From Gammaproteobacteria bacterium (GTDB lineage Bacteria > Pseudomonadota > Gammaproteobacteria > Pseudomonadales > Azotimanducaceae): a stretch of DNA of 64,000 bases. The notes below the pieces were generated by a model that searched no databases, had not been told where the DNA came from, and saw only the letters and a list, made by a program, of their open reading frames with translations. Each line of letters starts with the position of its first letter. Within the stretch, counting starts at the first letter, position 1. Both the position numbers and the translations under genes were made by a program. This document shows, one piece after another, positions 5,779 through 33,437 of this stretch. The stretch covers positions 186,001 to 250,000 of the forward strand of contig VXNY01000029.1 in assembly GCA_009840305.1 (NCBI GenBank). The letters run 5' to 3'.

Positions 5779-7430
5779 TTACTTTCTTCATCGATTCGCG
5801 GAGCGCGAAATTCCCCGGCTTGATGAAATACTACCCCCGTGACCTTGCCGTCCTCATCTTTTTCAAATTCAATCTCTGCATCTGCCACTTTGAAGAAAAA
5901 TCGGGTAGGGGACAAGGGAAATACCCGAACCTCTGCTTGCCCCGTTACGTGAACGAAAAGACGATCTTTAACTCGCTTTACTGTTGCAACTTGATTGAGC
6001 GGTAGTTGATATTTCCCCACATAATCCGTCAAGAGTTCAGAGTCAATTGACACTTCTTCTCGAGTTGCGATTCCGTAGCTGTCGTCGACTCGTTTGGCAT
6101 CGATAGATCCTCCAGGTTGTGACCACATCAGAGTTGTAGCCACTCCTTCCTCACCGATTTCAAATGTGGCGGAATAATTCAGTGCCTCAAGCTTGAATTG
6201 GTGGTCTTTGACGTGCTCAAGCACCAAAGGCGGCTGCCCAGTCACCTGCATCTGAAGTCTTCCATAACTATCCGATAAGGTCATGTATCGATTTGCTCCA
6301 AGGGAGTACACTCCGGAATATGGAGAGAGATCCATCAATTCGGAAGGCTCAATGTCTCTGTACAAAGAAGAACCTAGTTTTGCGATGGCATCGGACTCGG
6401 TCGAAGCGGCGAGGATCACCCAACCCCGTTTAGCTGTAGGATCTAACGCTAAGAAACTCGCATATCCACCAGTCTGACCATTGTGTAGGTACACCGTCGT
6501 ATCGTTCCGACTGGTTTCAGTGATCCATCCCAAAGCATGGCTTGATTCGTTCTGTAATTCTCGAATCGAGCGGATAGCACGGTGAATCGCATCATCAACC
6601 TCGCGGAAGTTTGCTAAGATGAATTTGTTTAGATCCTGCGCCGTCGAGCGGATTACACCTGCACCAGCATGGATGTTGAAATTCCACACGCCCATGTTTG
6701 CTGTGTAGCTGTAGCCGGCAGCAAGTTCCGTGTCGTCATCGATTGAATCAAACGCCGAGGAATTGTTCATTTCAAGAGGTTTGAAGACTCTTTGGTACAT
6801 CGCTTCCGCATAGCTAACTTCAAGAGTTTTTGCGGCTATATAACCCAGTAACGCGAATCCCAAATTGGAGTAGCCATACTCGTTTTTCAGTTCCGGTGGG
6901 TCGAAAGACTCGAAGAATGCGACTAGATTCTGCTCGCCATAGGTCGCGTAGGGATCCATCGCAGGAGCGGGAACTGCAGTTTCCGCGAAATTGTTAGGGA
7001 GTCGTGGCAATCCCGATCGATGTGTAGCAAGTTCTCGCAAAGTCACAGTTGCTACCGCTTCGTTGGCAAATTCAACATCCGGCAGACACTCACTAATTGT
7101 TTTGTCCCAGTGAAGCAACTCATCGTCGACCAAAGTTTGTACTAACAGCGCGGTAAACACTTTTGTTATTGATCCAATTTCGAAGACCGTGGTGTTTTCG
7201 TTCGGAGGCTCGCGTCTACTATCCGAAATTTCCCCTAATTTCATAATTCCAATTGAATCAGATTCATCAATGGATATCACAACCGCGGCTCGTACTCTGT
7301 GGTCGTTGATTAGCTGTAGAAGCTCATTCTTCACGTCGATTTCTTCGTTAGTCGGCGATGCGGTAGTGAAAAGGAATGAAGGCAAGGTGAGGACTATGAA
7401 ACTAAGAAAAAACTTGATTGTTGAATTCAT
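5775..7430 (-). CDS. Exported class C beta-lactamase-family serine hydrolase
   Basis: 551 residues with a signal peptide (hydrophobic 5-22). The beta-lactamase/DD-peptidase fold follows: S87-I-T-K90 nucleophile motif, Y187-S-N189, and an HNGQTGG motif near residue 318 in place of KTG. The C-terminal ~150 residues are a beta-rich extension of the kind seen in esterase/aminopeptidase members of this family rather than in resistance enzymes. Probably periplasmic and acts on an ester or D-amino-acid peptide. Convergent with the MtaD-like gene with overlapping stops. Whether it hydrolyses beta-lactams is unknown; I consider this unlikely. Confidence 0.88.
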   Translation of the reverse strand: MNSTIKFFLSFIVLTLPSFLFTTASPTNEEIDVKNELLQLINDHRVRAAVVISIDESDSIGIMKLGEISDSRREPPNENTTVFEIGSITKVFTALLVQTLVDDELLHWDKTISECLPDVEFANEAVATVTLRELATHRSGLPRLPNNFAETAVPAPAMDPYATYGEQNLVAFFESFDPPELKNEYGYSNLGFALLGYIAAKTLEVSYAEAMYQRVFKPLEMNNSSAFDSIDDDTELAAGYSYTANMGVWNFNIHAGAGVIRSTAQDLNKFILANFREVDDAIHRAIRSIRELQNESSHALGWITETSRNDTTVYLHNGQTGGYASFLALDPTAKRGWVILAASTESDAIAKLGSSLYRDIEPSELMDLSPYSGVYSLGANRYMTLSDSYGRLQMQVTGQPPLVLEHVKDHQFKLEALNYSATFEIGEEGVATTLMWSQPGGSIDAKRVDDSYGIATREEVSIDSELLTDYVGKYQLPLNQVATVKRVKDRLFVHVTGQAEVRVFPLSPTRFFFKVADAEIEFEKDEDGKVTGVVFHQAGEFRAPRIDEESN

Positions 7431-7613
7431 TGACTCCTCTATTGACGATCGCGAAAAGGCTTAGAACAGCGTGCCTTTGTGTTGTGAGAGAAATACATCG
7501 CAGCTGAAGAGTGTGTCGAGCGTCTTCAATCAATGCATACAGCTCAGTATATTGAATCGGGTCTCTAAGCCCGATTAACATATGCATTTTGCAATAGAAA
7601 CGAGACCACACAA

Positions 7614-8354
7614 TTGATAGACCTTTATTATTGGCCGACTCCTAATGGCTGGAAGATTTCGATAATGCTCGAAGAGTGTACTACGCCTTATAAGCTAATT
7701 CCTGTCGATATTGGAGCTGGAGATCAATTTAAGCCAGAATTTTTGAAGATTAGTCCCAATAATCGGATGCCTGCCATTGTCGATCATAGTCCAGTTGACG
7801 GCGGGTCACCGTTGTCCGTATTCGAATCTGGAGCAATATTGGAATACCTTGCCACGAAAGAGCAAAAGTTCATACCTCCAGATCCAAGAGGTCGAGTACT
7901 AGTCCTGCAATGGGTTCACTGGCAGATGGCAAATCTGGGTCCCATGATGGGAAATGCGAATCACTTTGTCAGTTATGCGCCAAAAATTGAACCAGACCTA
8001 AGTCTGTTGGAATACGGCAAGAAGCGATTTCTCGGGGAAGTCGATCGATTGTGCGGTGTTTTAAACAGACAACTCTCCTCCAGTACCTATGTTGCGATGA
8101 ACGAGCTAACAATAGCCGATATCGCGATCTGGTCTTGGGCGCATCTGTCGGCACGAATCTTAGGTGAAGATGCCTGGAAAACATTTCCACACGTTAAGGA
8201 GTGGACTGATAGATTGGGTGAGCGACGGGGTTTTCAAAGAGGTCGACAATTAGGAGAGGAACTCGCGAAAAAAGATCTCACACCAGAGGAAGAACAACGC
8301 CGACGAGAGCTCTTGTTTAACCAGTCGAGTGAATCACTGCCAGAGAATCAATAA
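7614..8354 (+). CDS. yfcG: YfcG-like glutathione transferase / disulfide-bond oxidoreductase
   Basis: 246 residues. The thioredoxin-like N-terminal domain begins MIDLYYWPTPNGWKIS and continues FLKISPNNRMPAIVDH and SVFESGAILEYLA, matching E. coli YfcG closely. A helical C-terminal domain carries LTIADIAIWSW. YfcG reduces disulfides using two bound glutathiones rather than conjugating. The start is TTG, fixed by the family N terminus (MIDLY). A ~25-residue charged tail beyond the usual end (KKDLTPEEEQRRR) is extra. It precedes a second GST gene by 140 bases. Confidence 0.9.
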   Translation: MIDLYYWPTPNGWKISIMLEECTTPYKLIPVDIGAGDQFKPEFLKISPNNRMPAIVDHSPVDGGSPLSVFESGAILEYLATKEQKFIPPDPRGRVLVLQWVHWQMANLGPMMGNANHFVSYAPKIEPDLSLLEYGKKRFLGEVDRLCGVLNRQLSSSTYVAMNELTIADIAIWSWAHLSARILGEDAWKTFPHVKEWTDRLGERRGFQRGRQLGEELAKKDLTPEEEQRRRELLFNQSSESLPENQ

Positions 8355-8494
8355 CACCAGTAACAAAACCAACCGACAGACTTTCAAACATGTCAGAAAT
8401 TGCACGTGGAAGTGGACGACCAAAGTCACTCAAACCAGCATGATTTTGAACCTATAATTTTGTCTCATTTTTACTCAAGCCCAAGGAAAGACTG

Positions 8495-9106
8495 TTGAAT
8501 AAACCACTTACTCTCTATACCAATCCTATGTCTCGCGGTCGGATTGTCCGTTGGATGCTAGAAGAATTAAATGCCACCTATGACACCGTTATTGTGCAAT
8601 ACGGACCGGAAATGAAGGGTCCAGAGTATTTAGCGATTAATCCAATGGGGAAGGTTCCTGCGATCAAACATGGAGACATAGTTGTCACCGAGTGTGCAGC
8701 AATTTGTGCATACCTCGCGGATGCGTTTCCAGAAGCCGGACTTGCACCTGATCTAAACGATCGTGGAAGCTACTATCGCTGGTTGTTCTTTGCGGCGGGT
8801 CCTGTGGAACACGCTGTTACGAACAAGACTTTGAACGTGGAACTCACCGATCGGCAACAAGGTATGGTTGGATACGGAAGTTTGTCTCGAGTACAAAACG
8901 CGTTAGAGCATGCATTACAACAGTCATCTTTTGTTGCCGGCGACAAGTTCACCGCGGCAGATGTTTATGTTGGCTCACACGTGTATTGGGCATTGAAATA
9001 TGCAAGACTTGAATCAAAACCGGTGTTCACTGATTACGTAGACAGATTGGGAGCAAGGAAGGCGAATCGTCGCGCTGAAGAATTGGATGGTCCTACTGAT
9101 ATGTGA
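8495..9106 (+). CDS. Glutathione S-transferase family protein
   Basis: 203 residues with the GST N-terminal fold (LTLYTNPMSRGRIVRWMLEEL, INPMGKVPAIKHGD, VTECAAICAYLAD) and a helical C-terminal domain containing FTAADVYVGS. The start is TTG with AAGGAAAG at 8483-8490, a strong ribosome-binding site. Same direction as the YfcG-like gene but a different GST subgroup. Substrate cannot be predicted; detoxification of electrophiles is the family role. Confidence 0.88.
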   Translation: MNKPLTLYTNPMSRGRIVRWMLEELNATYDTVIVQYGPEMKGPEYLAINPMGKVPAIKHGDIVVTECAAICAYLADAFPEAGLAPDLNDRGSYYRWLFFAAGPVEHAVTNKTLNVELTDRQQGMVGYGSLSRVQNALEHALQQSSFVAGDKFTAADVYVGSHVYWALKYARLESKPVFTDYVDRLGARKANRRAEELDGPTDM

Positions 9107-9223
9107 CTCGTCGGTTAAGTACGAACGCACACATCGTAAATAGTCTCCCTTTGGGACATACCACTCATATCGAAGAGCCAGCCAAAGGCTGACTTGAAAA
9201 CACAACTGTTCGTGAGGAAATAG

Positions 9224-10702
9224 TTGACTGAAGAAAACACAACGTCGCACGCGTTTTTCTTTACTATCATTTTCATGACGTCAGTCGTCATTTTGACAAT
9301 TGTCGGCTACTTTCTTTTTCTACCTAAGACTGCACCCAAACTCATAACTGTCGCGGTCTTACCCTTCGACGGACCAGAGGAATTTCCCGAACATCTAACC
9401 CGAGCACTTCCTCGACATCTTACCGAAATCATTGCTGAGAGTCGAGAAGTATTCGTCGTGGACTACGATGCTGCTGAAGAAGCAGTCGCTTTGAAAGAAA
9501 AGTCAAGGGGTTTTAGAAACGAACTCGGTACCACGCATATTGTCGACGGTACTTTCGAAGTTTCGGACGCATCGGCCGATTCGTGGGTATTGAAAATGAG
9601 GTTAATTGACGTTGGCAAAGATGTGTGGAAATTGAAGTGGTCGAATGAATTCTCGTATCCGGAGCTTTCGTTGCTAGAAATTCGCGACGCCATCGCGATT
9701 GAAGTAGCGGATGGCTTGTACGACAATAGCATCCCAGAATCCGATTCGACGAATATAAGCGCTACAGGTTTTGAACAGTTTCTTCATGCAAGTCTTTTGT
9801 TCCATTCCGGCGATCGTGAAGGAGCATTGACAATCGTCCAAGATCTACCTACGGAACAACAAACCGCTTATAGTACGTTCCTCTTGTCGGAATTATTACC
9901 CCAGTCTCAAGAGCTCTATGTAGAACAGACTCTCTCGTTACTGTCGAGTTACTACCCAGCCAAGGTAGTGCAAACGAAATCGCGCTTCAAAGAAAAAAAG
10001 AACCTGGTAAACTTTTTGAGTCATATGACTGATTTGGCGGGGCAATATCCAAATTCCGATGCAGTACCGGCGTTAGCATTACTCTATTCTGATTTGGGTT
10101 GGTTCAACGAAGCTGAAAACGTTCTTTTGCGATGGTCGCAAATTCGTCCTCGATCTAGCGATCCCGCATTGGCTATCGCATTTAATAGATTTCGTAAGAA
10201 CGATCTGAAGGGTGTGGAACACGCGCTGGAAATTGCGAGTCTTAGAGAGACTAGTAATGAAAGGGTGGATCGCTATCGTGCTTTATTCGAGTGGAAGGTC
10301 AAGGAAAACGAATTGAACACAGACGGGTCGGACTACCTGACATGGGTCGCCCGATACGAAAGTGGGGAGTTTTCGAAGACTGATCCAGCATGGACAATCT
10401 TCATCAATAGTCTGTCGTGCTATGATCAGGTAGAGATAAGTCTATACCTTAATAATCAAGATTATATATTTGATGACATTGACTGTATTGATTTAAGGAT
10501 TTGGTTACAACCGCCGCCGTGGTGGACTAACGACGATCCCAATTGGACGGCATTTCGAGAAGATCCGAGATACGACGCTTGGATGGAAGACAAAGGTATT
10601 CGATCGGATGTATTGGAGTCTATCGCGCCAATTCCCGCAAGCGAACTTTTCGCACCCAGGAGGCAGGTACTAAAGTCTAACGATCCTCAATCTGATCAAT
10701 AG
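9224..10702 (+). CDS. Membrane-anchored TolB-like / TPR protein
   Basis: 492 residues. One N-terminal membrane helix (about 10-33) is followed by an ITVAVLPFDGPEE segment typical of the TolB-like N-terminal domain that accompanies CadC-type and adenylate-cyclase regulators. The rest is helical, TPR-like, and ends with the WWTNDDPNWTAFREDPRYDAW signature seen at the C terminus of winged-helix/TPR regulators. Here the DNA-binding domain is absent. The start is TTG with GAGGAAA just upstream (9214-9220). Predicted to face the periplasm. It could be the sensor or output half of a regulator that lost its DNA-binding part. Confidence 0.75.
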   Translation: MTEENTTSHAFFFTIIFMTSVVILTIVGYFLFLPKTAPKLITVAVLPFDGPEEFPEHLTRALPRHLTEIIAESREVFVVDYDAAEEAVALKEKSRGFRNELGTTHIVDGTFEVSDASADSWVLKMRLIDVGKDVWKLKWSNEFSYPELSLLEIRDAIAIEVADGLYDNSIPESDSTNISATGFEQFLHASLLFHSGDREGALTIVQDLPTEQQTAYSTFLLSELLPQSQELYVEQTLSLLSSYYPAKVVQTKSRFKEKKNLVNFLSHMTDLAGQYPNSDAVPALALLYSDLGWFNEAENVLLRWSQIRPRSSDPALAIAFNRFRKNDLKGVEHALEIASLRETSNERVDRYRALFEWKVKENELNTDGSDYLTWVARYESGEFSKTDPAWTIFINSLSCYDQVEISLYLNNQDYIFDDIDCIDLRIWLQPPPWWTNDDPNWTAFREDPRYDAWMEDKGIRSDVLESIAPIPASELFAPRRQVLKSNDPQSDQ

Positions 10703-10714
10703 CATTCTTTCCAC

Positions 10715-11911
10715 TTAATTCAGTTTTAACTTGTCAACTCCGACCCATCGATCAAAGACTACGTATAAGATTAGAACGCTCACCAGTACGATTACCGAAA
10801 TTGCCGCAGCTAAGCCCCAGTTGTTCGTGTCGATATGGTAAGCGATCATATTGGAAATCAACTGCCCGTCAGTGCCACCCACAATTGCAGGTGTGATGAA
10901 GAAGCCAATAGAGAGAATGAAGACCAGAAGGCACCCTGACGCGACTCCCGGCAAAGATTGCGGCCAATACACACGTACGAAAGCTTGCACAGGATTTGCG
11001 CCTAGGGAAGCCGCCGCGCGCATATAAGTCGGAGGAATCGAACTAAGAACCGCATAGGTCGGTAAGACTACGAATGGCAACAAGTTCTGGGTCATGGCAA
11101 TCAACGTACCTGTCATGTTGTAGATTAACGAAAGCCGACCTTCATCTGGAATGATGCGTAGCCATACCAAGAAGTCGTTTATCACGCCTTGCGATTGCAA
11201 CAGCACGATCCACGATGTAGCTCGAGCTAACAGCGATGTCCAAAATGGTACTAACACGCAAAGCAGCAAGATCTTTGATAGAGTCGGCGGCGTATGCGCA
11301 ATAGCGTATGCGATCGGATACCCTATCACCAAACAGAGTAGCGTGACGACAGTTGCGACGTACAGCGTTCGAACGTATAAAGTGTTGTACACGCGTCGCT
11401 GTTCATCGACAGAAACAATCGAACCATCATCAGCTCGAGTAAGATCAATGGCGTGAAGATAGTTTTTGGCTGAGTATCGTTGTCCAGCTGTTTTGATTCC
11501 TTGCCAAAGATCGAGCTCACTCCAGCGGTCATCGATTTCGACCATGGTTGTAATCATGTTGTCAGTTTCAACATCTTTTACCCGACGTGCGGTTTTGCCC
11601 CACACACTTCGCGTTCCCGACACCACGCGATTGACTCGAATTCCAATCTTTCCAATCGTACGGTTTTCCTGTAAAACGACGATTTCTTCTGCTATGGTGC
11701 GAAAGACTTCTTCAGTAGGTAGCTCCACTCCGTTCCAGTCATTCAATAGTCGCATCGTATTGGGTAATGCGTCTGCTACTTCGGCATCGTACACACTCTC
11801 TTTTAACATATTTCCAAGCGGCATCAGAAACGTTATTGCAATAAAAGCGACTAGGGGCAGTGCTAGACTGATCGGCCTTATTCTGCTTTTGATGCCTTGT
11901 TTCGCTGCCAT
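10715..11911 (-). CDS. ABC transporter permease, PotB-type, with large extracytoplasmic insertion
   Basis: 398 residues. The first membrane helix (about 18-37) is followed by a ~130-residue hydrophilic segment before the usual five-helix permease core, so it is over 100 residues longer than PotB. The EAA loop reads LRAAASLGANPVQAFVRVYWP-like (YMRAAASLGANPVQAF). ATG 11911 follows the stop of the other permease (11913-11915) with a one-base gap, so the pair is translationally coupled. Last gene of the ATPase-binding protein-permease-permease operon. Polyamine or related cationic substrate is inferred from the family. Confidence 0.88.
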   Translation of the reverse strand: MAAKQGIKSRIRPISLALPLVAFIAITFLMPLGNMLKESVYDAEVADALPNTMRLLNDWNGVELPTEEVFRTIAEEIVVLQENRTIGKIGIRVNRVVSGTRSVWGKTARRVKDVETDNMITTMVEIDDRWSELDLWQGIKTAGQRYSAKNYLHAIDLTRADDGSIVSVDEQRRVYNTLYVRTLYVATVVTLLCLVIGYPIAYAIAHTPPTLSKILLLCVLVPFWTSLLARATSWIVLLQSQGVINDFLVWLRIIPDEGRLSLIYNMTGTLIAMTQNLLPFVVLPTYAVLSSIPPTYMRAAASLGANPVQAFVRVYWPQSLPGVASGCLLVFILSIGFFITPAIVGGTDGQLISNMIAYHIDTNNWGLAAAISVIVLVSVLILYVVFDRWVGVDKLKLN

Positions 11912-19436: not shown

Positions 19437-22400
19437 CTACCGCTCTATCTTGGTCCAACGAATAGCATCAGCGTAGACTCTCGCAGGTGGCGACGATGGC
19501 TTCGGTCGATATACGAGCTTCGCCGAGACCGGATCACTACTTAGCTCAAATCGTTCAACTCTGTTCCAACCATAGGACATAGACTTAACGTCTAACGGAA
19601 TTTTGAAAGTTTTATCGTTTTGGGTGATCACAAGCAACAAAGCGTCTTTTTCAGGGATCTCGGACTCCCTCATCCACTCCGTAGGCGCAAACCAAGGATA
19701 GTGGTAGTCCAGCTGCCACTTGCCTGCTTCTGTTAAGTTCGTTTTAAATTCTACGATCGGTACCTCTTTTTCGGCCCAGACGTACGCGAATGATTGACGG
19801 AATCTTCCGAATGGAATCTCCATTAAGCTCTGAGTTCGACGTTGCCAATAGTTTGGAAGTGGACGGCTCAAACCATTACTTGGTTGAATCGGTAAATTTT
19901 TGTCTAGTTCGATTTCAGTGTGTTGACTATTTATCCACGCTAAGGGACCGAAGCGTCGTGAAGTGGCGAGACGCGGGGAGATTTGATTCACTATAAAACC
20001 TTCGTCTAAGTCGTCCACCAAGATACTACGATCTGCCGAGGGAGAGTCGACAACTTCTGTAAATGGAGATTGTGACTGACTGGGACCATATGAATCTTCT
20101 TGCTCAACTACGTCATAGTAAAGCTCTCGCCGATTAAAAGACAGACCAGGTTGGATTTTGAAACCGCCGATTTTATATGCTGTTAGAAATTTGACGCGCA
20201 GAGCCGAATTTCCGTCGATTTGAATGAAGTCGAGATGTTCGAACATTGGTAAAGACCATTGAGCAGATTCCATTGTGGGAATCTTGAGTTCGACGTGTCC
20301 TTCAACCGGTTGTTTATTTTCTAGTACAAACGTCGTTTGATACCTCGCGTCGCCCCTGTCATCGTTGGAGATTTGACGAATTGAGGGTCCGTGAACGAGG
20401 AAAGCTGGGACTGTACTCTTCGTAATCCAATCAGTTAGAAACGGTGCATACACGACTTCGTGCTCCTTCGCACTACTAATGAAATCGACATATGTGAAGT
20501 TCCGAGCATGGTATTGTTGTCGTAATTGATCTATCCATCGAAAGGTTTTTTCTTGTCCGTTGACATTGAGTAATCCTTCTGCAATCTCTCGACTCTTTAA
20601 GAGTGATGCTTCCAAGTCCATTTGAGACTTATTTGAGGATCGTAATCGAGAAAATTCATTTCGTTCGACGTGACTCCAGATTGACGAGCGTTCTATAAAG
20701 GTACGTTCAACGCTGTTAACATCTGATTCATACCGTCTGTGAACGATGTTTGGATTTGTCAAAACATCGTTAACTCCTTGCCGAGCTGCCGCGTACTGTA
20801 ACATGGTAAAGTCCGATATACGCATCGTTGAATAGATCGAGAACTGCCGTTTGGGTCGGCTCAATTCTGACGGAAAGGCTGTAAGAAGCCAGTTCACGAC
20901 TTGGTCAAGGGACTCGGCATACTCACCCATAGGAGCGGTTTGATGTTTCCATAGAAGTTTGTTGAGACTTGTCCACGGAGCATCTGTACCCTTACCTTTG
21001 TCGAAATAGAGGGTTAATAGTCTTAGCGGAGCTAATTCAGCAACCTCCGAAAAATCGGGGCCGTACGAACTCACCCGTTTTATGTAACGCGCAAGGGCTA
21101 GTTGTAGTTTTGCGCGAGGGAAACCGTGTTCCTTTAATAGTATTAAGCCACCTGGTAGGGTGTCGACCGCATCCATCCGCCAACCACCCCCAACAGTTCG
21201 AAGGCTTCGCGGAATCTCAACAAAATTTATACCTATTTCAAGGGGAGCGAGTCCCAGCTCTTGGCACTCGTCAATCCAGGAGTACGCTTTTTCGCGCAGA
21301 GTATCATTCCAATCAGTAATAGGATGGAGATTGTTGGTGTGCTTAGCATGTAAATACATGGAGAAGTGAATACCGCTGATTTCAATCGAAGCTTGTTCAA
21401 ATCGAGATGCAAAGATTCCTAATTCTGGGATCGCAGAACCCGACTGGATCTCGTACGTGTTTGGCATCTCCGATAACTCAGCATGTTGTGCCGAGGCGAC
21501 GAGGCTCCAGTCTTTGCGACTGAGTGCCACACTCAGGTTAACTTCAAAGAAGTCTCTGTTCGGTTCTGAGTCGCGGTGTATTGTGTTGACTGGACCAGGT
21601 GTGGGATACCAATGTGCGCCGGGCATCAACGCGACGTACGAACTACTGTAAATTGTTCCATCTTTACCGAGCAACTTTGTCAAGTGCGCTGGAATTTCAG
21701 GGTCTGTGAGATAGTTAACAACGCTGTCGAGATACGCGAAATTTGCCTTTGGTCTACCTTGGACTTCAATCACGAGCTCGATGGGTTTTCCAATCTCAAC
21801 ATTTACATTTGGAATTTCCAGAAGCCCGTTATTGAAGTCGTTCTCGACTTGAACACCATCAATTTCTACACTTTGGATGTTCAGCCCCGGATTCAGTGTG
21901 AATACAAAAGGCTGTGTTGTACTTCCGGATTTGCGAACTAATCTGACGATATACTTAGCATCCATGGACTTGTGTGGGTCGATGTTGATAGTACCGCCAA
22001 GTTCTAGGACATCGATATCATCCGTCCATTCATATTCGGCATGAACTGCCTTCCAGTCATCAAACTGGTTGAATGGAGACATTACACTCCACGCCCCCAA
22101 AAAGAACGCTCCAACGCCGAAGGCTAAGCTAATCGGTAGTATGCTCTGATTTAGTCTTGTTGGCTTGGTACCATCCAAGCGACTATGAAAATACGCACCG
22201 CACGCTAGAAAGAACGCAGAGAACAAGACGTATGAAATTCGTATCAAAATCGTGCCGAAAGAAGGTAAACCAGGAGTTATCTCAGAGACTAATAGAGTGT
22301 CGTTACCTGAAGGACTCACTAGAGAGACCAATGAGTACGACGAACGAATGATCAACCAATACCAACAGAACATTGCAGTCGCTCCAACGAGCAACAGCAA

Positions 22401-22967
22401 TAATCGATTGCGGAACAGAACTGACAAAAGAATCAAAAAACTACTCCAGAATAGTAGATTAACAGGGCCATCGATCAAGAGCAGGTTGACTACTGAGTGC
22501 CACTGTAATGTCTCGGCGAAATTCCATCCAAAAATCGAAAAACTACCTACGAACTGCATAACCAAGATATTTACTGCCACCAGCACCCAAAGACTTCCAG
22601 TAACAGCTACCACTCGACCCACCAAGACTTCCAGATTGGTGGCTGGCTCAGTATCAATTACCTCGGCAATTCGATGTCGGTCATGTCGTTGTACTAAGTC
22701 AAACTGAATCAATAACAAAGCCCAATTGAAAAATAGTAAGATGGTTGGGTCGATGTTGCCAAGCAAGTACTTAGGTGCGTTTATCCCCGCAGTTGGGTCG
22801 TAGGGCAGATGGTACGCGAGGTACCAGCAAGCCAATATGTAACCCAATTGCATCGTTAAAGTTAACAACACTGCTAACACCCAAGCGCGGGTAAGCCGAC
22901 GCAGTATTCGAAATTCCATCAAACCGGTCGAAATCACGTGGATCAGCTTAGTTTTGGTCGATGTCAT
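19437..22967 (-). CDS. Large ABC-2-type membrane protein with M1-peptidase-like and golvesin-like extracytoplasmic region
   Basis: 1,176 residues. Residues ~20-310 contain about seven membrane helices like the permease half of ABC-2/M1-peptidase fusion proteins (ACWYLAYHLPYDP, LFFNWALLLIQFDLVQRHDRHRIAEVID). The remaining ~850 residues are extracytoplasmic and resemble the beta-rich and helical M1-type architecture, but I find no HExxH zinc motif. The C-terminal ~100 residues end YADAIRW, the typical edge of golvesin/Xly-type carbohydrate-binding folds. No ABC ATPase is encoded next to it, which is odd because relatives usually sit in an ABC operon. Function unknown; export or envelope role is inference. 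Confidence 0.7.
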   Translation of the reverse strand: MTSTKTKLIHVISTGLMEFRILRRLTRAWVLAVLLTLTMQLGYILACWYLAYHLPYDPTAGINAPKYLLGNIDPTILLFFNWALLLIQFDLVQRHDRHRIAEVIDTEPATNLEVLVGRVVAVTGSLWVLVAVNILVMQFVGSFSIFGWNFAETLQWHSVVNLLLIDGPVNLLFWSSFLILLSVLFRNRLLLLLVGATAMFCWYWLIIRSSYSLVSLVSPSGNDTLLVSEITPGLPSFGTILIRISYVLFSAFFLACGAYFHSRLDGTKPTRLNQSILPISLAFGVGAFFLGAWSVMSPFNQFDDWKAVHAEYEWTDDIDVLELGGTINIDPHKSMDAKYIVRLVRKSGSTTQPFVFTLNPGLNIQSVEIDGVQVENDFNNGLLEIPNVNVEIGKPIELVIEVQGRPKANFAYLDSVVNYLTDPEIPAHLTKLLGKDGTIYSSSYVALMPGAHWYPTPGPVNTIHRDSEPNRDFFEVNLSVALSRKDWSLVASAQHAELSEMPNTYEIQSGSAIPELGIFASRFEQASIEISGIHFSMYLHAKHTNNLHPITDWNDTLREKAYSWIDECQELGLAPLEIGINFVEIPRSLRTVGGGWRMDAVDTLPGGLILLKEHGFPRAKLQLALARYIKRVSSYGPDFSEVAELAPLRLLTLYFDKGKGTDAPWTSLNKLLWKHQTAPMGEYAESLDQVVNWLLTAFPSELSRPKRQFSIYSTMRISDFTMLQYAAARQGVNDVLTNPNIVHRRYESDVNSVERTFIERSSIWSHVERNEFSRLRSSNKSQMDLEASLLKSREIAEGLLNVNGQEKTFRWIDQLRQQYHARNFTYVDFISSAKEHEVVYAPFLTDWITKSTVPAFLVHGPSIRQISNDDRGDARYQTTFVLENKQPVEGHVELKIPTMESAQWSLPMFEHLDFIQIDGNSALRVKFLTAYKIGGFKIQPGLSFNRRELYYDVVEQEDSYGPSQSQSPFTEVVDSPSADRSILVDDLDEGFIVNQISPRLATSRRFGPLAWINSQHTEIELDKNLPIQPSNGLSRPLPNYWQRRTQSLMEIPFGRFRQSFAYVWAEKEVPIVEFKTNLTEAGKWQLDYHYPWFAPTEWMRESEIPEKDALLLVITQNDKTFKIPLDVKSMSYGWNRVERFELSSDPVSAKLVYRPKPSSPPARVYADAIRWTKIER

Positions 22968-26017: not shown

Positions 26018-26126
26018 CATGTTCAATTTATGCATTGCAATCGTGAATTCAGGTTTTCTTTGAGTAGAAAGCTGGATTGAAAATTTTGTGGATAATTCAA
26101 AATAACGTATCGTGAGAAGAGCTCTA

Positions 26127-27413
26127 ATGTCGTATTGCAAGATTGTTTTGTGTTTTTTCTCATTATTGGTGGCAATAACGGGTGGAATCACGGAGGAGCA
26201 GGAGGAGGAAGAAGTTATTTTGTCTTCAGCCGACGCGCACGCAAAGTATCGAGTTCACGTACCAGCGAATCCAATCCACGAAAGCCAAGTTCCCGAAACT
26301 CAACTTAAAGCTTGGAAGAACGTGCTTAATCAATGTACGCCAGTGATTACAAATCAAGAATTGAGTGAATCCTGCATTTCTGCACTTGACGAATATTTTC
26401 CTTCTGAACCAGTTTGGGATAACAGGATGTACTACTACAGAGGGAGTCTTGGTTATCGAAATTTGAACCGGGGTCACTTATTTGGAGACTTCACAGACCG
26501 GGACAGAGCAGGTTCTCTGCCTTTTAGTTCCGCGGATTTCCTAGGAGACATTCCGCGTTGGCGCGATATTTTTGACGGAAATATTGAGCAACGGACAAGT
26601 CGATTTTTGCAGATTGTCAATGACGAAACTTGCATGGATCGAGTATCTTCTAAGAACAAAGGAATTGACAAGAATTTAGCGTCTCGATGCGCGGCTAGAG
26701 AGCTTTACAAATACTCTGCATACTTAGATGCATGCTCTTCAGCGACGCATCGACTGCACCAGTTGCAAATAGAGCGTCCCCACGAACTTCCCTGGAAGCA
26801 TGTCGAGCACATACCGACCGATTACGACATCAGCATCAAATTCATCAGAAGAGAGATTGAGAATCCAGAATCGCGCGCAATCGCAACACGAAGTATGCAA
26901 AGGGGATATTTACTCGCCTATTGGACTGTGCAGCAATGTGAATTGCATGATTACGTTTTGATACCGGGTTTGACCCACGGAACCAAGACTTCTGGTACAC
27001 ACGCACTCAAATGGGAGAACCTAGTACCTCGCCGATCTTCTAAAAGAGACGATATAAAACTTCTTGACCAAACGAGTCAACGGATTCTGAAAATCGCTGC
27101 AAAGAGTGGAGACGAATGGGCGATACGTAGCTTTGACTTTAGATATAGTCGAGGGAAAGAATTTCGATCCGATGTACATAAGGAGTATCCAATCTTGACT
27201 CATCGCTGGCTAGGAAGTCGTGGAAAGACCGAGAACGCAAGGCGACACCAAGCAAAGGCTTACCTCCTTTTGAAAGAAACAGCTAGTGAAGAGATAGCGC
27301 GGCTCGAATACGACCCAAATGACCTCTCAGAAGCAATTCTGTATATTCTCGATGGAGGTGAATTGAACTACCCACCTACATGGGTTGAAACGCCTGTAGA
27401 ACAACTCCAATAG
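26127..27413 (+). CDS. Secreted protein of unknown family
   Basis: 428 residues. A signal peptide (MSYCKIVLCFFSLLVAITGG) is followed by an acidic run (TEEQEEEEE) and a helical mature protein with conserved-looking features such as YYYRGSLGYRNLNRGHLFGDF, RWRDIFDG and a handful of cysteines that could pair (residues near 75, 88, 176, 189, 202). I recognise no domain. ATG 26127 has AGAAGAG upstream and is preferred to GTG 26112. It precedes the M14-lyase gene by 209 bases on the same strand, so it may belong to the same system, but the gap allows separate transcription. Confidence 0.7.
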   Translation: MSYCKIVLCFFSLLVAITGGITEEQEEEEVILSSADAHAKYRVHVPANPIHESQVPETQLKAWKNVLNQCTPVITNQELSESCISALDEYFPSEPVWDNRMYYYRGSLGYRNLNRGHLFGDFTDRDRAGSLPFSSADFLGDIPRWRDIFDGNIEQRTSRFLQIVNDETCMDRVSSKNKGIDKNLASRCAARELYKYSAYLDACSSATHRLHQLQIERPHELPWKHVEHIPTDYDISIKFIRREIENPESRAIATRSMQRGYLLAYWTVQQCELHDYVLIPGLTHGTKTSGTHALKWENLVPRRSSKRDDIKLLDQTSQRILKIAAKSGDEWAIRSFDFRYSRGKEFRSDVHKEYPILTHRWLGSRGKTENARRHQAKAYLLLKETASEEIARLEYDPNDLSEAILYILDGGELNYPPTWVETPVEQLQ

Positions 27414-27622: not shown

Positions 27623-30310
27623 TTGAAGTTTAAGTTTCTTGCTCTTTTAGTCGCTAGCTCATTAGTTAGTTTTGCCTGGTCCGCGACTCACGATTGTGAA
27701 TCCACTCTTTATGCAGTCTACACAGACTATCCAGGTGCGAATATTGCGTCATGCGAGGCGACGCCAACATACTTAGATGTTTTTGTCCTGCCCGAAGATT
27801 CCAATGTCGTCAATACTAGCCCTTGGTATGGATTTCGTATAGACCCAAAACCTGATACAGGTCCCATTGAACTGAACATCGTCCTGAACTATCCCAAGGA
27901 TTTCAAAAATCTCAAACATCGTTATGTACCAAAACTGAGCACGAACGGTGTGGATTGGGAAGCAATAGATCCCAATAGAGTTACCGTTGTCGACGAGGGT
28001 TTATCTGCACGTTTTACGATCCTGATGGAAGAGGAACCTCTCTACGTGTCTGCGCAAGAGAATCTAGCGAGCGATTGGTACAAGGGCTGGTTTGCTGAAT
28101 TACAAACAGCTTGGAACATAGGCGAACCACAAGTCGTTGGTTATTCCCACGAGTACCGGGCGATCGAAGTGTTTCAGACCAACCCACAAACAAATAAACA
28201 CTTGTTGTTCTTAGGTCGTGCGCATCCACCAGAAATTCCAGGAGCGATGGCAATGCGAGCGTTTTTAAATGATTTAAGTGAAACCCGACTTGAAGAATGC
28301 TCGTCAGGCTTGTCTCCTGTCTGTGGATTTTTTGCACGGTACAACTTAGTCTTGGTACCGGCCCTTAATCCTGACGGGGTTGTACACGGTCATTGGCGAC
28401 ACAACTCTGGAGAGTTAGATCTGAATCGTGACTGGGGAAACTTTTCTCAACCGGAGACCTCTGCTGTGAGAAGGTTTCTTGACAAGCTTGATTTGTCGTC
28501 CCGCTTACGACTGATGTTAGACTTTCACTCGACTAATCGCGATGTGCTCTACATCCAGCAACAAAGTGATCCAATGGATCCTGAAAATTTCATATCCGAT
28601 TGGTTGGACTTAGTAAGCGTTCGAGCGGTAGATCAGAATGAAAATGGCTATCCCGCTGGTTTTGAACCCGCCGAACGAGAGTTATCGGATTTGGGCACGT
28701 CTAAAAACTACTTTTATCGAACCTACGGCGTACCTTCTATAACCTTTGAAACCGGAGATAACGTAGATCGGGATACATTACCAGAACGACTATCTTTCTT
28801 TTCACAGGCGATGATTGAATTTTTTGTCAACGAACGGGCATTGGACACCCAAGATCAAGGAGCTCCTATTTGCAGAACGGTATATGATCGACAAAATCCG
28901 TGCGACGATTTCTATTGCTTCATGATCGAAGCTAATAAGGCCACATTGGTTTCGTCAGCGAAGGACAGCATCGTCTCATCGGCGGACGTCCCGTTATTTG
29001 CATCAGCGCTACTTCAAGATAGTGCCAGAGCCTCTTTAGATGCGGATTTACGAACATCGAACTATGCAGTTCTTGAGCCACGGCTTATCGAATTAGCGGG
29101 GAGCGACATTTCTACTTTACATATCGGACGGTCGCGACAAGATTTGCACGGGACGGTGCGCCGGATGTTAGCTCGCCAAGATTGGTTGGAATTGTTGCAA
29201 CGAGTCCTTGATGCTCGGAAAGGACTACTAACGATGGTCGCTGAACATCACGAAACCGTAGTGCCAACCTATACTCACGGAGTACCAGCGGAGCCAACAA
29301 CTTACGCTCACATATTGTTAGCGTACTCAGAGTCGTTTGATCGGATTAGCGAAAGATTTCAAGAGGGTTTTAGTAGAGTCAACCTAAGTCCATATGGTGC
29401 TGGCGTAGGCAACACAAGCGGCGTACGACTTGATCGAAATCGATTAGCTAGGTTATTAGGCTTTGATGACATCGTCGAAAACAGTTTTGACGCCAATTTT
29501 GTCAGTAGTCTAGACTATGCCGTCGAGTTAGCATCGCTACTGAAGAATACTGCTTTAGTAGTCAATCAGTTTGTCGAGAACATTCACTCTCAACAACGCA
29601 ATCCCTGGCCGTGGATTTGGATTCAACCGACCGACGTTGGCGACAGCAAGAGTACATCAATGCCACAAAAGCGCAATCCGCGAGATCTCGATAGACTTCG
29701 AACTGCTGCAAACGATGTGCTCGCGATGGCAGATCGAGTAACTCTTAATGTACATAACGTCGATGCGGGCATGCACGACTATCGCATGGCGAATAACGTG
29801 AGCAAGATGGTCGAAACTGGTACGATTATGCTGACGAAATTTCAAGAATTGCTCACCCAAATTTTTCTGGATCCTGAGCGAGCAATTCAGGAAATCGACC
29901 GAAGTTTTGCGACCTCAGCACAAGTAACGGAAGTTCTCGTTTCACATACTGATCTATCTTTTCGCGATGCATTTGAGTTTACTGCTGAACTCGTAAAACT
30001 CGGCCGGAGCACCGGCAAAACTATTCAAGAACTTTCTGACGATGCAATCTCTGAACTCTATGAAGAGAAGCTTGGGGACGTCGAAGAATTAGATGTGACA
30101 GTTCTCAGGAATGCCTTAGACGCAAGAGAAATGGTGTTGAATCGTGCTGGTATAGGTGGCCCGCAACCTTCGGAAACAGCGCGAATGCTGGAGGAGCAAT
30201 ACAAGAAGTTGCACAAGGCTATGACTTGGCTAAAACATACTCATGCGTCCATCAATATAGCGGACATCGCCCTGCAAGATGCCGTATTTAAACTGTGTGT
30301 GGATAATTAA
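27623..30310 (+). CDS. Exported M14 zinc carboxypeptidase fused to an argininosuccinate-lyase/fumarase-superfamily domain
   Basis: 895 residues. A signal peptide (MKFKFLALLVASSLVSFAWS) is followed by a ~130-residue beta domain and then an M14 peptidase domain with all catalytic residues: zinc H201 and E204 (HPPE), N268-R269 (LNRDW), zinc H302 (DFHS) and general base E376 (TFETGD). From about residue 435 a second enzyme begins, of the aspartase/fumarase/argininosuccinate-lyase superfamily: HIGRSRQD (500-507), YTHGVPAEP (His552) and the signature SMPQKRNP (679-686) in a Ser-rich loop. The lyase part is close to argininosuccinate lyase, which is normally cytoplasmic. TTG start, with no alternative in the short open frame upstream. 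Followed by a TonB receptor. See findings. Confidence 0.88.
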   Translation: MKFKFLALLVASSLVSFAWSATHDCESTLYAVYTDYPGANIASCEATPTYLDVFVLPEDSNVVNTSPWYGFRIDPKPDTGPIELNIVLNYPKDFKNLKHRYVPKLSTNGVDWEAIDPNRVTVVDEGLSARFTILMEEEPLYVSAQENLASDWYKGWFAELQTAWNIGEPQVVGYSHEYRAIEVFQTNPQTNKHLLFLGRAHPPEIPGAMAMRAFLNDLSETRLEECSSGLSPVCGFFARYNLVLVPALNPDGVVHGHWRHNSGELDLNRDWGNFSQPETSAVRRFLDKLDLSSRLRLMLDFHSTNRDVLYIQQQSDPMDPENFISDWLDLVSVRAVDQNENGYPAGFEPAERELSDLGTSKNYFYRTYGVPSITFETGDNVDRDTLPERLSFFSQAMIEFFVNERALDTQDQGAPICRTVYDRQNPCDDFYCFMIEANKATLVSSAKDSIVSSADVPLFASALLQDSARASLDADLRTSNYAVLEPRLIELAGSDISTLHIGRSRQDLHGTVRRMLARQDWLELLQRVLDARKGLLTMVAEHHETVVPTYTHGVPAEPTTYAHILLAYSESFDRISERFQEGFSRVNLSPYGAGVGNTSGVRLDRNRLARLLGFDDIVENSFDANFVSSLDYAVELASLLKNTALVVNQFVENIHSQQRNPWPWIWIQPTDVGDSKSTSMPQKRNPRDLDRLRTAANDVLAMADRVTLNVHNVDAGMHDYRMANNVSKMVETGTIMLTKFQELLTQIFLDPERAIQEIDRSFATSAQVTEVLVSHTDLSFRDAFEFTAELVKLGRSTGKTIQELSDDAISELYEEKLGDVEELDVTVLRNALDAREMVLNRAGIGGPQPSETARMLEEQYKKLHKAMTWLKHTHASINIADIALQDAVFKLCVDN

Positions 30311-30330
30311 GACGAGAACTAGTAATTCAC

Positions 30331-30399
30331 GCCCACGATTCACCCCAAAAAAGCACTTCATGTTGATACTTGAAAAAGTATTGTGTGTGGGCTTTTTTT
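30331..30399 (+). terminator. Intrinsic-terminator-like or attenuator structure
   Basis: GCCCAC (30331-30336) can pair with GTGGGC (30387-30392), followed immediately by seven T. Inside lies a perfect GAAA-loop hairpin (ATACTT-GAAA-AAGTAT, 30366-30381). AAAAAAGC (30347-30354) can also pair with GCTTTTTT (30391-30398), an alternative that would exclude the first stem. It either ends the M14-lyase transcript or attenuates the TonB receptor. Confidence 0.55.
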
Positions 30400-30422
30400 G
30401 TTATTACAAAGGAGAGAATTTC

Positions 30423-33400
30423 ATGAAGAGAAACAAATTTCGATGGATTGAGCGGTCATTTTTTCCAACTGTTTTTTCTGTTTTATTGATCGTCGGTGCA
30501 GGCAATGCAATCGGCCAAGAAGAGGAAGAAGAAGAGAATACAGACGAAGAAATCGAAGAGGTTGTAGTAACTGGCACTCAAATCAAAGGTGCTGACATCG
30601 GAGGCATATTGCCCGTAACAGTTTTTGAAGCCGAAGATGTCGAAGCTTTCGGAGTTTCCTCGGGCGATGAGTTACTAGATCTACTACCTGAACAAGGACA
30701 GAATTTCTTCAACGAGGAAGAGACAATTAGTGGTGGGGTAAATGCGGCGCGTGGAGACATCGGTGCGTTCAACCTACGCAATCTTGGCACAGGAAATACG
30801 CTAGTCCTGCTCAATGGGCGGCGATTGGTTAATGCCGCGAGCTATCAAACCGAAGAAGTAGGCGGTAGTTTCGTCCCGGTGAACACGGTGAATTCCAATA
30901 CGATTCCTGTTTTTGGTGTCGACCGAGTCGAGATTCTGCGTGATGGTGCTGCAGCAGTTTATGGTGCAGACGCGGTCGCAGGTGTGGTCAACACCGTTTT
31001 ACGCAGCGATTACGAAGGCGTAGTTTTCCGTTGGCGTGTATATGCCTATGATCTCGTAGGCCGGGTCAGTAATGATTTAACTGGTGAATGGGGACGGTAC
31101 TTCAACGACGGCAAAACCCACATAGGTTTGACCTTTAATTACTACACTCGCGACGCTATTCATGCAAGTGAAGATTCAAAGTGGGCGAATTCCGAGATGA
31201 GATATCTCGTTCCGGACGACTCTCCTTGGTCCGGTTCAACTTCATTTCGCAATACTAGTGCGAACTCGTTGTGGGGACAATACGATATCCGGCGCAGTGT
31301 GTCTCGCTTCGGCTTGAGCGGTATTACGGATCGAAGTGGGGAATTTGAGACGTTTCCCCTCGGTCACGAAGATTGTGATTGGGTGTTGAATGAAACCACC
31401 TGTGGAGCAGTAGACGGCAACGGAACTTACCGGTACAACTTGAATGAATTTCGAGATCTCTCCTCTGCTCTGAGTCGGTTTAGTACGTTTCTCTTCATGA
31501 ATCACGAATTGGACAATGGAATCGATTCCTTTACTGAAGTACTCTTCTATTCCTCGCAATCGGAACTTTGGCGCCATCCGTCCGCTCCCTTTTCCTCGGT
31601 AAAACTCCGAGTTGGTCCTGAAAATTACTACAACCCCTTCGGACCGTGCGGTTCTCCGAATCGATTGCCGGAGGATTTGATTCCAGACGTTCCCTGCGAA
31701 GGTTTGGAGTTGGAAATTGATAACTATAGATTCGCACAAGTCCCTCGGATCGTTCTCAATGACGGCAATGTGTTTCGATTTTTGCAAGGATTTCGTGGCA
31801 CGCGAGGTGAGTGGGACTGGGAAGCCGCTGGAGTTTGGTCGGTCGCGACTCGCGAAGACTTAACTCGAAACAGGGTTTCCAATTCGTTGGCTGCTGAAGC
31901 TCTCTTCGATCCAACTCCAGCCGCATATAACCCTTTCAGCGGTGGGATGAACAGCAACATTGAACGCATTTTGGTTGATGTGAGCCGAGATAACATGATG
32001 TCTCTCTTCATGGTCGATCTAAAAGTCTCGAACCAATCCTTCTTGGACCTACCTGCTGGACCCGTAAGTGCACTCCTAGGCACGGAGATTCGAACAGAAT
32101 CCTTTGACGACGACCGCGATCCCCGACTGGATGGTACTATCGTGTTCACCGATTATCAGGGTGATACCTATCCTTTCGTTTCAGACGTCGTAAACTCAAG
32201 CCCGACGCCCGATAGTAGTGGAGATCGACTAGTGTTTTCGCTATTTGGAGAACTCCACGTACCACTCGTTCCTAGGTTAGACTCGTTGATTGCACTGCGC
32301 TATGAAAACTTTTCGGATATAGGCGATACTTTTGTCGGTAGAGTCGCAGTAGGCTTTCGCCCAGTAGATGCGTTGCAATTACGCGGAGCTTGGTCGCAAG
32401 CTTTTAGAGCACCGAATTTGATTACCGTAAATGAAGATATTGTTGCGCGGCAGAATACAAGAACGGATTGGGCATGTACCTATGCTGCTCTAAACGGTGG
32501 AGATCCCGAGCAAGATGTAATAGACTGTGTGAACTCCACACAAAGAGTCGCACAAGGGAGCGAAGATTTAGTTTCCGAGGAGTCCGTGAATGTTACTTTT
32601 GGTGTCGTAGTCGAACCGTCTCCGTGGTTAACTTTCACAGTGGACTATTGGTCCATTGAAAAGGAAAATACCATTGGACTCTTTGGGGAAGAGAACCACA
32701 CAGTCTATGACTTGCTACTTCGAATACGAAATGGACTGAACAACTGTGAATCGTTCACTGGAAATCCTGCTGTGAATCGGTTAGAAGACATCGAAGATGA
32801 CGAGGCTGCAATCTACACAGCGGCAGGTATATGTCCTGCTGGGTTGATCCACAACATCGTTGATAACTACGCAAATCTAGACACGCGATCTCTCTCAGGG
32901 ATCGATTTTGGGATCTATCTCGACTTTGAAACAGACTTTGGTTCATTTTCGTTCAAGTATCTTCGAGCTCAAACTGATGAATTTTCTCAAGAACCAGGCG
33001 GACCATCATTAGAACTTGTTAACGCAAAAGAGGCCGGAATTATTCCGGCAGACATACCAGTAGCAGGATTTGCGGATTTGATTGGTCAGGACGGAAATCA
33101 AGAGTACGAATCGACCTTTTTGCTACGCTGGCGCAACTTCCCCTACGCAGCAACATTGTTCGGCAATCAACTCGGGGAGTTCTATCAAGATTCATTGACG
33201 ATCGACGACGGTACCCCAGAAGGGATAAGATACGTCATTCCGGAATTCATGACTTGGAACGTATCGTTTGATTACACTCGAGATTTCTTTGGAGAACGTA
33301 CTCGGTTCCGTTTTGGTATTAAAAACGTTACGGGAGAACGAGCTCCATTAGCTGACCGGTACTTTGGATTTTTCTCCGATGCACACCGTGATTATGGCAG

Positions 33401-33437
33401 ATATTATTACTTCGACATTCGATTCCGAAAGAGTTAA
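30423..33437 (+). CDS. TonB-dependent outer-membrane receptor
   Basis: 1,004 residues. A signal peptide is followed by a Glu-rich spacer and the TonB-box-like EEVVVTGTQIKGADIGG, the plug (LRNLGTGNTLVLLNGRRLVN and VEILRDGAAAVYGADAVAGVVN) and a long beta-barrel ending YYYFDIRFRKS. ATG 30423 has GGAGAG seven bases upstream; the in-frame extension to 30279 overlaps the previous gene and the hairpin and is rejected. The length and plug type suggest uptake of a peptide, carbohydrate or similar ligand rather than a simple siderophore, but substrate is unknown. Immediately downstream of the exported M14-lyase. Confidence 0.93.
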   Translation: MKRNKFRWIERSFFPTVFSVLLIVGAGNAIGQEEEEEENTDEEIEEVVVTGTQIKGADIGGILPVTVFEAEDVEAFGVSSGDELLDLLPEQGQNFFNEEETISGGVNAARGDIGAFNLRNLGTGNTLVLLNGRRLVNAASYQTEEVGGSFVPVNTVNSNTIPVFGVDRVEILRDGAAAVYGADAVAGVVNTVLRSDYEGVVFRWRVYAYDLVGRVSNDLTGEWGRYFNDGKTHIGLTFNYYTRDAIHASEDSKWANSEMRYLVPDDSPWSGSTSFRNTSANSLWGQYDIRRSVSRFGLSGITDRSGEFETFPLGHEDCDWVLNETTCGAVDGNGTYRYNLNEFRDLSSALSRFSTFLFMNHELDNGIDSFTEVLFYSSQSELWRHPSAPFSSVKLRVGPENYYNPFGPCGSPNRLPEDLIPDVPCEGLELEIDNYRFAQVPRIVLNDGNVFRFLQGFRGTRGEWDWEAAGVWSVATREDLTRNRVSNSLAAEALFDPTPAAYNPFSGGMNSNIERILVDVSRDNMMSLFMVDLKVSNQSFLDLPAGPVSALLGTEIRTESFDDDRDPRLDGTIVFTDYQGDTYPFVSDVVNSSPTPDSSGDRLVFSLFGELHVPLVPRLDSLIALRYENFSDIGDTFVGRVAVGFRPVDALQLRGAWSQAFRAPNLITVNEDIVARQNTRTDWACTYAALNGGDPEQDVIDCVNSTQRVAQGSEDLVSEESVNVTFGVVVEPSPWLTFTVDYWSIEKENTIGLFGEENHTVYDLLLRIRNGLNNCESFTGNPAVNRLEDIEDDEAAIYTAAGICPAGLIHNIVDNYANLDTRSLSGIDFGIYLDFETDFGSFSFKYLRAQTDEFSQEPGGPSLELVNAKEAGIIPADIPVAGFADLIGQDGNQEYESTFLLRWRNFPYAATLFGNQLGEFYQDSLTIDDGTPEGIRYVIPEFMTWNVSFDYTRDFFGERTRFRFGIKNVTGERAPLADRYFGFFSDAHRDYGRYYYFDIRFRKS

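Follow-up and report, generated by a model that had tools for sequence, protein, structure and literature searches.

A putatively exported carboxypeptidase–lyase fusion encoded beside a TonB-dependent receptor in Gammaproteobacteria

Enzymes of the argininosuccinate lyase (ASL) superfamily are known mainly as cytosolic proteins, and C–N elimination is their commonest reaction. Solved members include the EDDS lyase of Chelativorans sp. BNC1 (PDB 6g3d, 6rx8), while zinc carboxypeptidases of the M14 family are represented by the bacterial structures 4b6z, 3l2n, 4a37 and 3k2k, which we take to be CCP-like, and by CCP5 (8v3m-8v3s). A further characterised member of the ASL superfamily, 2SL, splits S-(2-succino)-N-acetylcysteine inside cells, and its authors state, in the available part of their report, that salvage from succinated proteins requires prior proteolytic release (PMC9706529). 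Here we analyse a 64,000-nucleotide stretch (hereafter the window) of a gammaproteobacterial draft genome (contig VXNY01000029.1; genome of 2.62 Mb, 95.6% complete, with the window on contig 34), in which one gene joins an M14 carboxypeptidase to an ASL-type lyase and is followed by a gene for a TonB-dependent receptor. A search of the open literature found no paper on this enzyme architecture. We consider it an evenly balanced proposition that the locus encodes an exported two-step enzyme, linked to its receptor, for the periplasmic disassembly of an acidic peptide-like conjugate.

The fusion occupies positions 27623-30310 of the forward strand as a single frame of 895 codons without internal stops, the first listed start being TTG. 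From N- to C-terminus it comprises a leader, a CCP-like M14 zinc carboxypeptidase and an ASL-type domain. Pfam recovers Peptidase_M14 at residues 165-382 (50.8 bits; cut-off 21.6), Lyase_1 at 497-699 (88.4 bits; cut-off 27), which places the protein in the aspartase/fumarase superfamily, and ASL_C2 at 762-815 (28.8 bits; cut-off 27.3). An earlier note, made from the letters of the window, had described an exported 895-residue M14–ASL-type protein and named as active-site elements H201, E204, N268-R269, H302, E376, GRSRQD (residues 502-507), H552 and SMPQKRNP (residues 679-686); frame and domains bear this description out, and every one of these residues is present. Export is suggested by the hydrophobic N-terminus; leaders throughout this study, in the fusion, its relatives and the upstream protein, were judged by eye.

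The same fusion is present in 18/18 genomes of the genus (the window's included) and in at least two further genomes, of a sister genus (G411 and G1287; G and L denote our genome and locus handles). The 17 other matches within the genus are 37-89% identical to the window's fusion and none contains an internal stop; in G012 the 5′ end is lost at a contig edge. An assembly or sequencing artefact, which the earlier note had raised against its own proposal, is therefore rejected, as the fusion recurs in 20 genomes with 17/17 of these same-genus matches uninterrupted. The named relatives are contigs of metagenome-assembled genomes (for example VXLL01000023.1) labelled only Gammaproteobacteria, OMG group or Pseudomonadales, some of them presumably from sponges. 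Searches with a lyase profile (A2) covered 390, 369, 398 and 206 genomes in overlapping sets, at limits of 1e-60 or 1e-66, with the best four or eight candidates per genome scored, so that all counts are lower bounds; within the genomes searched, the fusion is limited to two genera. Among the matches listed, the fusions and a lone lyase from G022 score 585-736 bits, four lyases from other lineages 373-393 bits and all others at most 264 bits. Where these lower scorers were inspected, they proved to be ArgH or other cytosolic forms; those at about 205-235 bits were taken as ArgH without individual inspection, and six from the 235-264-bit group were retrieved and placed in a tree (see below).

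In an alignment of the 18 same-genus fusions (A1; the G012 row lacks the N-terminus), H201, E204, R259, N268, R269, H302, K361 and E376 of the M14 part and R503, R505, D507, T551, H552, S677, K683 and N685 of the lyase part are invariant, and both active sites appear intact. Cysteines C25, C44, C427 and C432 are conserved in at least 90% of these fusions, a pattern that would suit a periplasmic protein. An AlphaFold model of the whole fusion has a mean pLDDT of 82.8 and a pTM of 0.81. The earlier view of two complete-looking active sites is upheld at the level of sequence; in the model, confidence is low at residues 254-265, near R259, and at 673-682, in the catalytic loop of the lyase.

The next gene does encode a large TonB-dependent receptor, as had been proposed: the frame listed at 30279-33437 yields Plug and barrel domains of 51.1 and 78.1 bits, above their cut-offs. 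Receptors of the same family adjoin the fusion in 20/20 loci, in tandem in 19 and divergently in G1287, so the predicted recurrence of this gene pair is observed throughout. The matched stretches are separated by about 0.1-1.4 kb, a 115-codon frame intervening in G016, and in G012 only the start of the receptor precedes the contig end. To place this pair in context, we searched 206 genomes of the family for the receptor, scoring the best four of up to 54 candidates; at least 48 genomes match at E 1e-100 or better, and 44 of these were examined. G1175, G1221, G1258 and G1277 were left out (match positions in G1277 put about 90 bases between M14 and receptor), as were second receptor matches in G1133, G1279 and G1281.

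M14, a lyase or gamma-glutamyltransferase (GGT) is found at 39/44 receptor loci. M14 is present in 31, lyase-fused in 20 and without a lyase in 11, where the receptor is 34-60% identical to that of the window. An ASL-type lyase is present in 21, the 20 fusions and the lone lyase of G022, which lies with two GGT genes, a LysR-like regulator and a D-amino-acid-dehydrogenase-like gene. GGT occurs at nine loci, within 2.6 kb of the receptor (in two cases only the start of GGT precedes the contig end), and together with M14 only in G1206; in G1206 and G1208 an amidohydrolase adjoins M14. In G1222 and G1253 a lyase of AdSL/PcaB/XcbD type lies between receptor and GGT. This second lyase type, which carries a leader by eye, belongs to another subfamily of the same superfamily and scores best with the AdSL, PcaB and XcbD models, all far under cut-off; we read it as a separate recruitment. 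The five loci without these enzymes are G1129, G1130, G1133, G1177 (short contig) and G1205 (short contig, with a PGA_cap-like protein). For comparison, a single GGT was found in 22 stretches totalling 412 kb, a rough control because these stretches were not random: lyases or M14s had been the reason for picking them at a previous stage, and they include three receptor loci with an apparent pump and none of the enzymes. What stays constant in this modular locus is the receptor; M14 is its commonest partner, and the lyase, drawn from two subfamilies, is one of several exchangeable modules, alongside GGT and amidohydrolase. The LysR name, like that of the RND-like pumps mentioned below, was assigned by eye.

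Some further proteins were seen alongside these modules. The two lyases of the second type (L172, positions 5709-7139, and L177, positions 4477-5856, both on the forward strand), which have leaders and lie between the receptor family and GGT, carry TL in place of the TH that is common at that position in the superfamily, and retain the Ser loop. G1286 (L127, positions 7448-10087, reverse strand) encodes an 880-residue protein, leader-bearing by eye, in which a member of this M14 family is joined to an Amidohydro_3-type amidohydrolase; the receptor was not found within the 19 kb seen around it.

The features of the fusion and its receptor are given below by window position and strand; residues of the M14 part were also compared in a second alignment of 19 M14 sequences, 14 of them without this lyase.

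27623..27685, +: predicted leader (signal) peptide of the fusion, approximately residues 1-21; hydrophobic N-terminus by eye, likewise in homologues
27695..28822, +: M14 part (N-terminal beta domain and catalytic domain), residues 25-400; Pfam M14, AlphaFold, Foldseek
28223..28234, +: zinc ligands H201-PP-E204; invariant in 18/18 fusions and 19/19 of the second M14 set
28424..28429, +: N268-R269, carboxylate binding; invariant in 18/18 and 19/19
28526..28528, +: H302, third zinc ligand; invariant in 18/18 and 19/19
28703..28705, +: K361, predicted base of the S1′ pocket (carboxypeptidase A position 255); invariant in 18/18 and 19/19
28748..28750, +: E376, catalytic glutamate; invariant in 18/18 and 19/19
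28904..30301, +: ASL-superfamily lyase domain, residues 428-893; Pfam Lyase_1 and ASL_C2, Foldseek matches to EDDS lyase and ASLs (TMt about 0.8), tree
29126..29143, +: GRSRQD motif, residues 502-507, with Q506 where ArgH and EDDS lyase carry N; alignment
29273..29278, +: T551-H552, invariant in 18/18; ArgH shares the H, EDDS lyase has Q
29651..29677, +: mobile catalytic loop S677...K683, N685; these three residues invariant, low pLDDT at 673-682
29681..29683, +: R687, replacing the Asp of ArgH and EDDS lyase (D290); alignment
30423..33437, +: TonB-dependent receptor (listed frame from 30279, overlapping the fusion; 30423 is the likelier start); Plug and barrel by Pfam, adjoining the fusion in 20/20

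The M14 part shows the complete catalytic set of CCP-like enzymes (HxxE, R, NR, H and E), in which we take R259, just ahead of N268-R269, to be the counterpart of Arg127 in carboxypeptidase A. Modelled alone, it reaches a pLDDT of 82.3 and a pTM of 0.82, and the top 15 Foldseek matches are the bacterial structures named above and CCP5 (TMq 0.66-0.69), in agreement with a CCP-type N-terminal domain and fold. K361 was mapped to position 255 through its place 15 residues ahead of E376, the same spacing as between 255 and E270 in carboxypeptidase A, and according to the available part of a study of this family a basic residue there accompanies cleavage of acidic C-terminal residues (PMC9925722). 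Given this rule and the invariance of K361, an acidic specificity is predicted, and the M14 domain would most likely cut a C-terminal glutamate or aspartate.

The lyase part stands apart from ArgH by several measures. The ArgH model TIGR00838 gives the window's fusion 178.9 bits and 13 same-genus fusions 170-226 bits, all below the curated cut-off of 279.5, and the ArgH substrate motifs are replaced, with SRQD for SRND and HN..GM.D for the QEDK region. Following KxNP, 11/11 fusion rows and the G022 lyase carry R, versus D in 6/6 ArgH rows and in EDDS lyase; an arginine on the leaving-group side would point to a pocket for an anionic rather than a cationic leaving group. A tree of 33 sequences, which includes 11 of the 20 fusions and leaves out the lyase of Cupriavidus CH34, is divided by a branch supported at 100/99. 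On one side lie the 11 fusion lyases, the G022 lyase and eight more leader-bearing lyases, four of them from Caballeronia, Agrobacterium, Paracoccus and a Comamonadaceae plasmid; on the other lie six ArgH sequences, six cytosolic lyases and, at the end of a long branch, EDDS lyase. Lyases of the former side have in common SQD in place of SRND, an insert of two residues close to residue 624 and the HN..GM.D motif. By its sequence, the fusion lyase is a member of a putatively exported clade apart from both ArgH and EDDS lyase.

Taken together, these data suggest the following scheme, of which export, catalysis, the order of the steps, acidic specificity and the fumarate product are what we infer. 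At the outer membrane, the TonB-dependent receptor would capture an acidic peptide-like conjugate, which it would pass to the periplasm. There, the M14 domain would take off the C-terminal residue (glutamate or aspartate being most likely), after which the ASL-type domain would release fumarate by elimination from a succino (1,2-dicarboxyethyl) adduct on the remainder, making amino acid(s), fumarate and the leaving group available for use; at related loci, M14 or GGT could do the trimming. The earlier suggestion of a substrate with an aspartyl or succinyl-type bond remains plausible in its acidic form; its EDDS-type chelators fare worse (see below). In a wider form, which we put forward tentatively and regard as unlikely, one receptor family would anchor a modular periplasmic breakdown of succinated (fumarate-adduct) peptides, GGT or M14 stripping the peptide and one of two separately recruited exported lyases freeing fumarate, with both steps united in one bifunctional protein here. 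If true, this would to our knowledge be the first exported pathway for fumarate-adduct salvage, in cells many of which seem to be without cysteine synthesis. The combination of a leader-bearing lyase branch, a carboxypeptidase fusion and a single receptor family would also point to succino adducts outside the cell as a pool on which bacteria may draw, and the receptor loci, with M14, lyase, GGT or amidohydrolase, form a related set from which a common ligand might be triangulated.

Several observations weigh against a two-step enzyme tied to this receptor. The 11 loci with M14 and no lyase, and five loci with GGT where neither M14 nor lyase was seen, indicate that the receptor's ligand does not require the lyase, and G1129, G1130 and G1133 carry an RND-like pump instead, with M14 elsewhere in these genomes. 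The leaders are a by-eye judgement; Q506, at a position where ArgH and EDDS lyase carry N, means that the reaction may differ; and the position-255 rule derives from M14 enzymes of A/B type, its transfer to the CCP type being our extrapolation.

Among the alternatives for the ligand, N-succino compounds (iminodiacids) are possible, if on the unlikely side. Here the lyase would release fumarate and an amino acid from opine-like N-(1,2-dicarboxyethyl) amino acids or peptides with a neighbouring glutamate. The prevalence of C–N elimination in the superfamily argues for this reading, R687 would suit an anionic amino-acid leaving group, and K361 together with the GGT, PGA_cap protein and amidohydrolase of related loci is compatible with glutamate conjugates; against it, we know of no ligand of this sort.

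Salvage of succinated thiols, which seems to us quite unlikely, would have GGT or M14 trim an S-(2-succino) peptide such as succinated glutathione and the lyase yield fumarate and a cysteine compound for cysteine-deficient cells. The precedent of 2SL speaks for it, as a peptidase–lyase fusion would supply the proteolysis step that its authors call for; in the available part of that report, activity with glutathione, assayed as succination, was undetected (PMC9706529). It is also consistent with GGT at 9/44 receptor loci and with a second lyase type that scores among its best, if far below cut-off, with XcbD, a cysteine-adduct synthase by model name. Moreover, 11/18 fusion genomes, the window's included, are without a CysKM match above 68 bits or a CysI-family match at E 0.001. 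The fusion is retained, however, in the seven other genomes of the genus too, where CysKM-like matches score 259-279 bits and CysI-family matches are weak, none of the 18 reaches the curated CysKM or CysI cut-offs (the only cysteine routes searched), and auxotrophy may merely mirror genome reduction. In addition, the M14 pocket predicts an acidic C-terminus and not glycine, five GGT loci show no lyase, and an N-succino ligand fits equally well. A role in sulfur supply is attractive, not shown.

In plain scavenging of acidic peptides, M14 alone would matter and the lyase domain would now be structural or serve in binding. The 11 receptor loci with lyase-free M14 are in line with this possibility, but we hold it to be decidedly unlikely: the catalytic residues of the lyase are invariant down to 36% overall identity, and the stand-alone lyase of G022 retains them in a protein without M14.

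Uptake and breakdown of a metal chelator of EDDS or aspergillomarasmine type appears very improbable, and EDDS is an unlikely substrate by sequence. Among solved structures, EDDS lyase matches best in sequence and also heads the Foldseek results when these are ranked by E-value and TMq (0.45-0.46 versus 0.41-0.43 for ASLs). TMt, however, places ASLs and delta crystallins level with it or higher (up to 0.84), and in the tree EDDS lyase sits on the ArgH side, albeit on its long branch. Of six residues near its substrate, as given in the available part of a published account (PMC12363623), the fusion keeps two (R112 and N288), whereas N113, Q159, D290 and Y320 correspond to Q506, H552, R687 and M717, so that by these residues it does not belong with EDDS lyase. 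We noticed no chelator or metal genes at these loci, in which no systematic search for them was made.

It is likewise hardly credible that the fusion is an exported argininosuccinate lyase feeding arginine to an auxotroph. An argG match above cut-off is absent from 8/18 same-genus genomes (the window's included), and of the seven of these checked for ArgH none has one above cut-off, which would suit an auxotroph; but without argG the fusion would not be serving arginine synthesis there, genomes with both argG and ArgH above cut-offs retain it, and a separate ArgH above cut-off coexists with it in 6/13 same-genus genomes checked. With the missed TIGR00838 cut-off and the altered SRND, QEDK-region and Asp positions, this distribution leads us to reject the fusion as an ArgH substitute. 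Poly-gamma-glutamate or peptidoglycan is a conceivable ligand in view of the GGT, PGA_cap and D-amino-acid-dehydrogenase-like genes at related loci, but would leave the lyase unexplained.

Elsewhere in the window, the frame preceding the fusion (26112-27413, forward strand) encodes 433 residues with a leader-like N-terminus and has no Pfam or NCBIfam match at E 0.1. The earlier note's description of it as a secreted protein without a family fits these features; as a part of the unit, however, the protein is rejected, since of the 16 same-genus stretches extending far enough to show the region ahead of the fusion (those of G003 and G012 fall short) it occurs in only two, having been sought at these loci and not elsewhere in the genomes. 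Relatives lie beside the fusion in G002 (61% identity) and, more distantly, near the M14–receptor pair in G1281 (29%). A protein of 1176 residues with apparent N-terminal membrane segments and no Pfam match is encoded at 19437-22967 on the reverse strand; its relatives lie near the fusion in several same-genus loci.

Compared with known systems, the lyase domain shares with EDDS lyase the superfamily fold and the catalytic loop (26% identity over 444 columns), but EDDS lyase is not part of a fusion and occupies a separate branch. With ArgH (TIGR00838) it shares the domain order, the TH motif and the SS-MPQK-NP loop, from which it departs by SRQD, the two-residue insert, HN..GM.D, R after KxNP and the leader. 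Among models for other lyases, XcbC (NF052535) gives the fusion 170.8 bits, nearly the ArgH level, and XcbD (NF052536) is the highest or nearly the highest model for the second lyase type, every score being far below cut-off. 2SL, compared by description only, is likewise a fumarate-releasing member of the superfamily; unlike the putatively exported fusion, it is cytosolic and, according to the available part of its report, encoded in yxe loci with an acetyltransferase and a deacetylase (PMC9706529).

The nearest relatives outside the two genera are the leader-bearing lyases of Caballeronia (WP_008345650.1), Agrobacterium, Paracoccus and the Comamonadaceae plasmid, which share the tree side, SQD and the insert. 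They differ in lacking M14 and in carrying N for H552 and, in 7/8 rows once the other four leader-bearing lyases of that side are counted in, S for R505; no TonB receptor appears in their annotated contexts, where gene tables may be incomplete. These plasmid lyases of Caballeronia (L114, positions 8917-10416), Agrobacterium (L115, 8920-10419), a Comamonadaceae bacterium (L116, 8914-10422) and Paracoccus (L117, 8890-10416) are annotated as 'argininosuccinate lyase' or 'lyase family protein', have S for the first Arg of SRQD and lie in varying gene contexts. Another lyase of the same clade (L106, positions 9148-10752, reverse strand) lies near a lysA-like gene for a pyridoxal phosphate-dependent decarboxylase.

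Finally, the M14 part has the N-terminal beta domain, the catalytic domain and the full catalytic set of the bacterial M14 structures and CCP5, from which it is set apart by its leader, by its fusion partner, a lyase here and an amidohydrolase in G1286, and by a Foldseek identity of 15-18%. The kinds of parts assembled at this locus are known; their combination and the putatively exported lyase branch look new.

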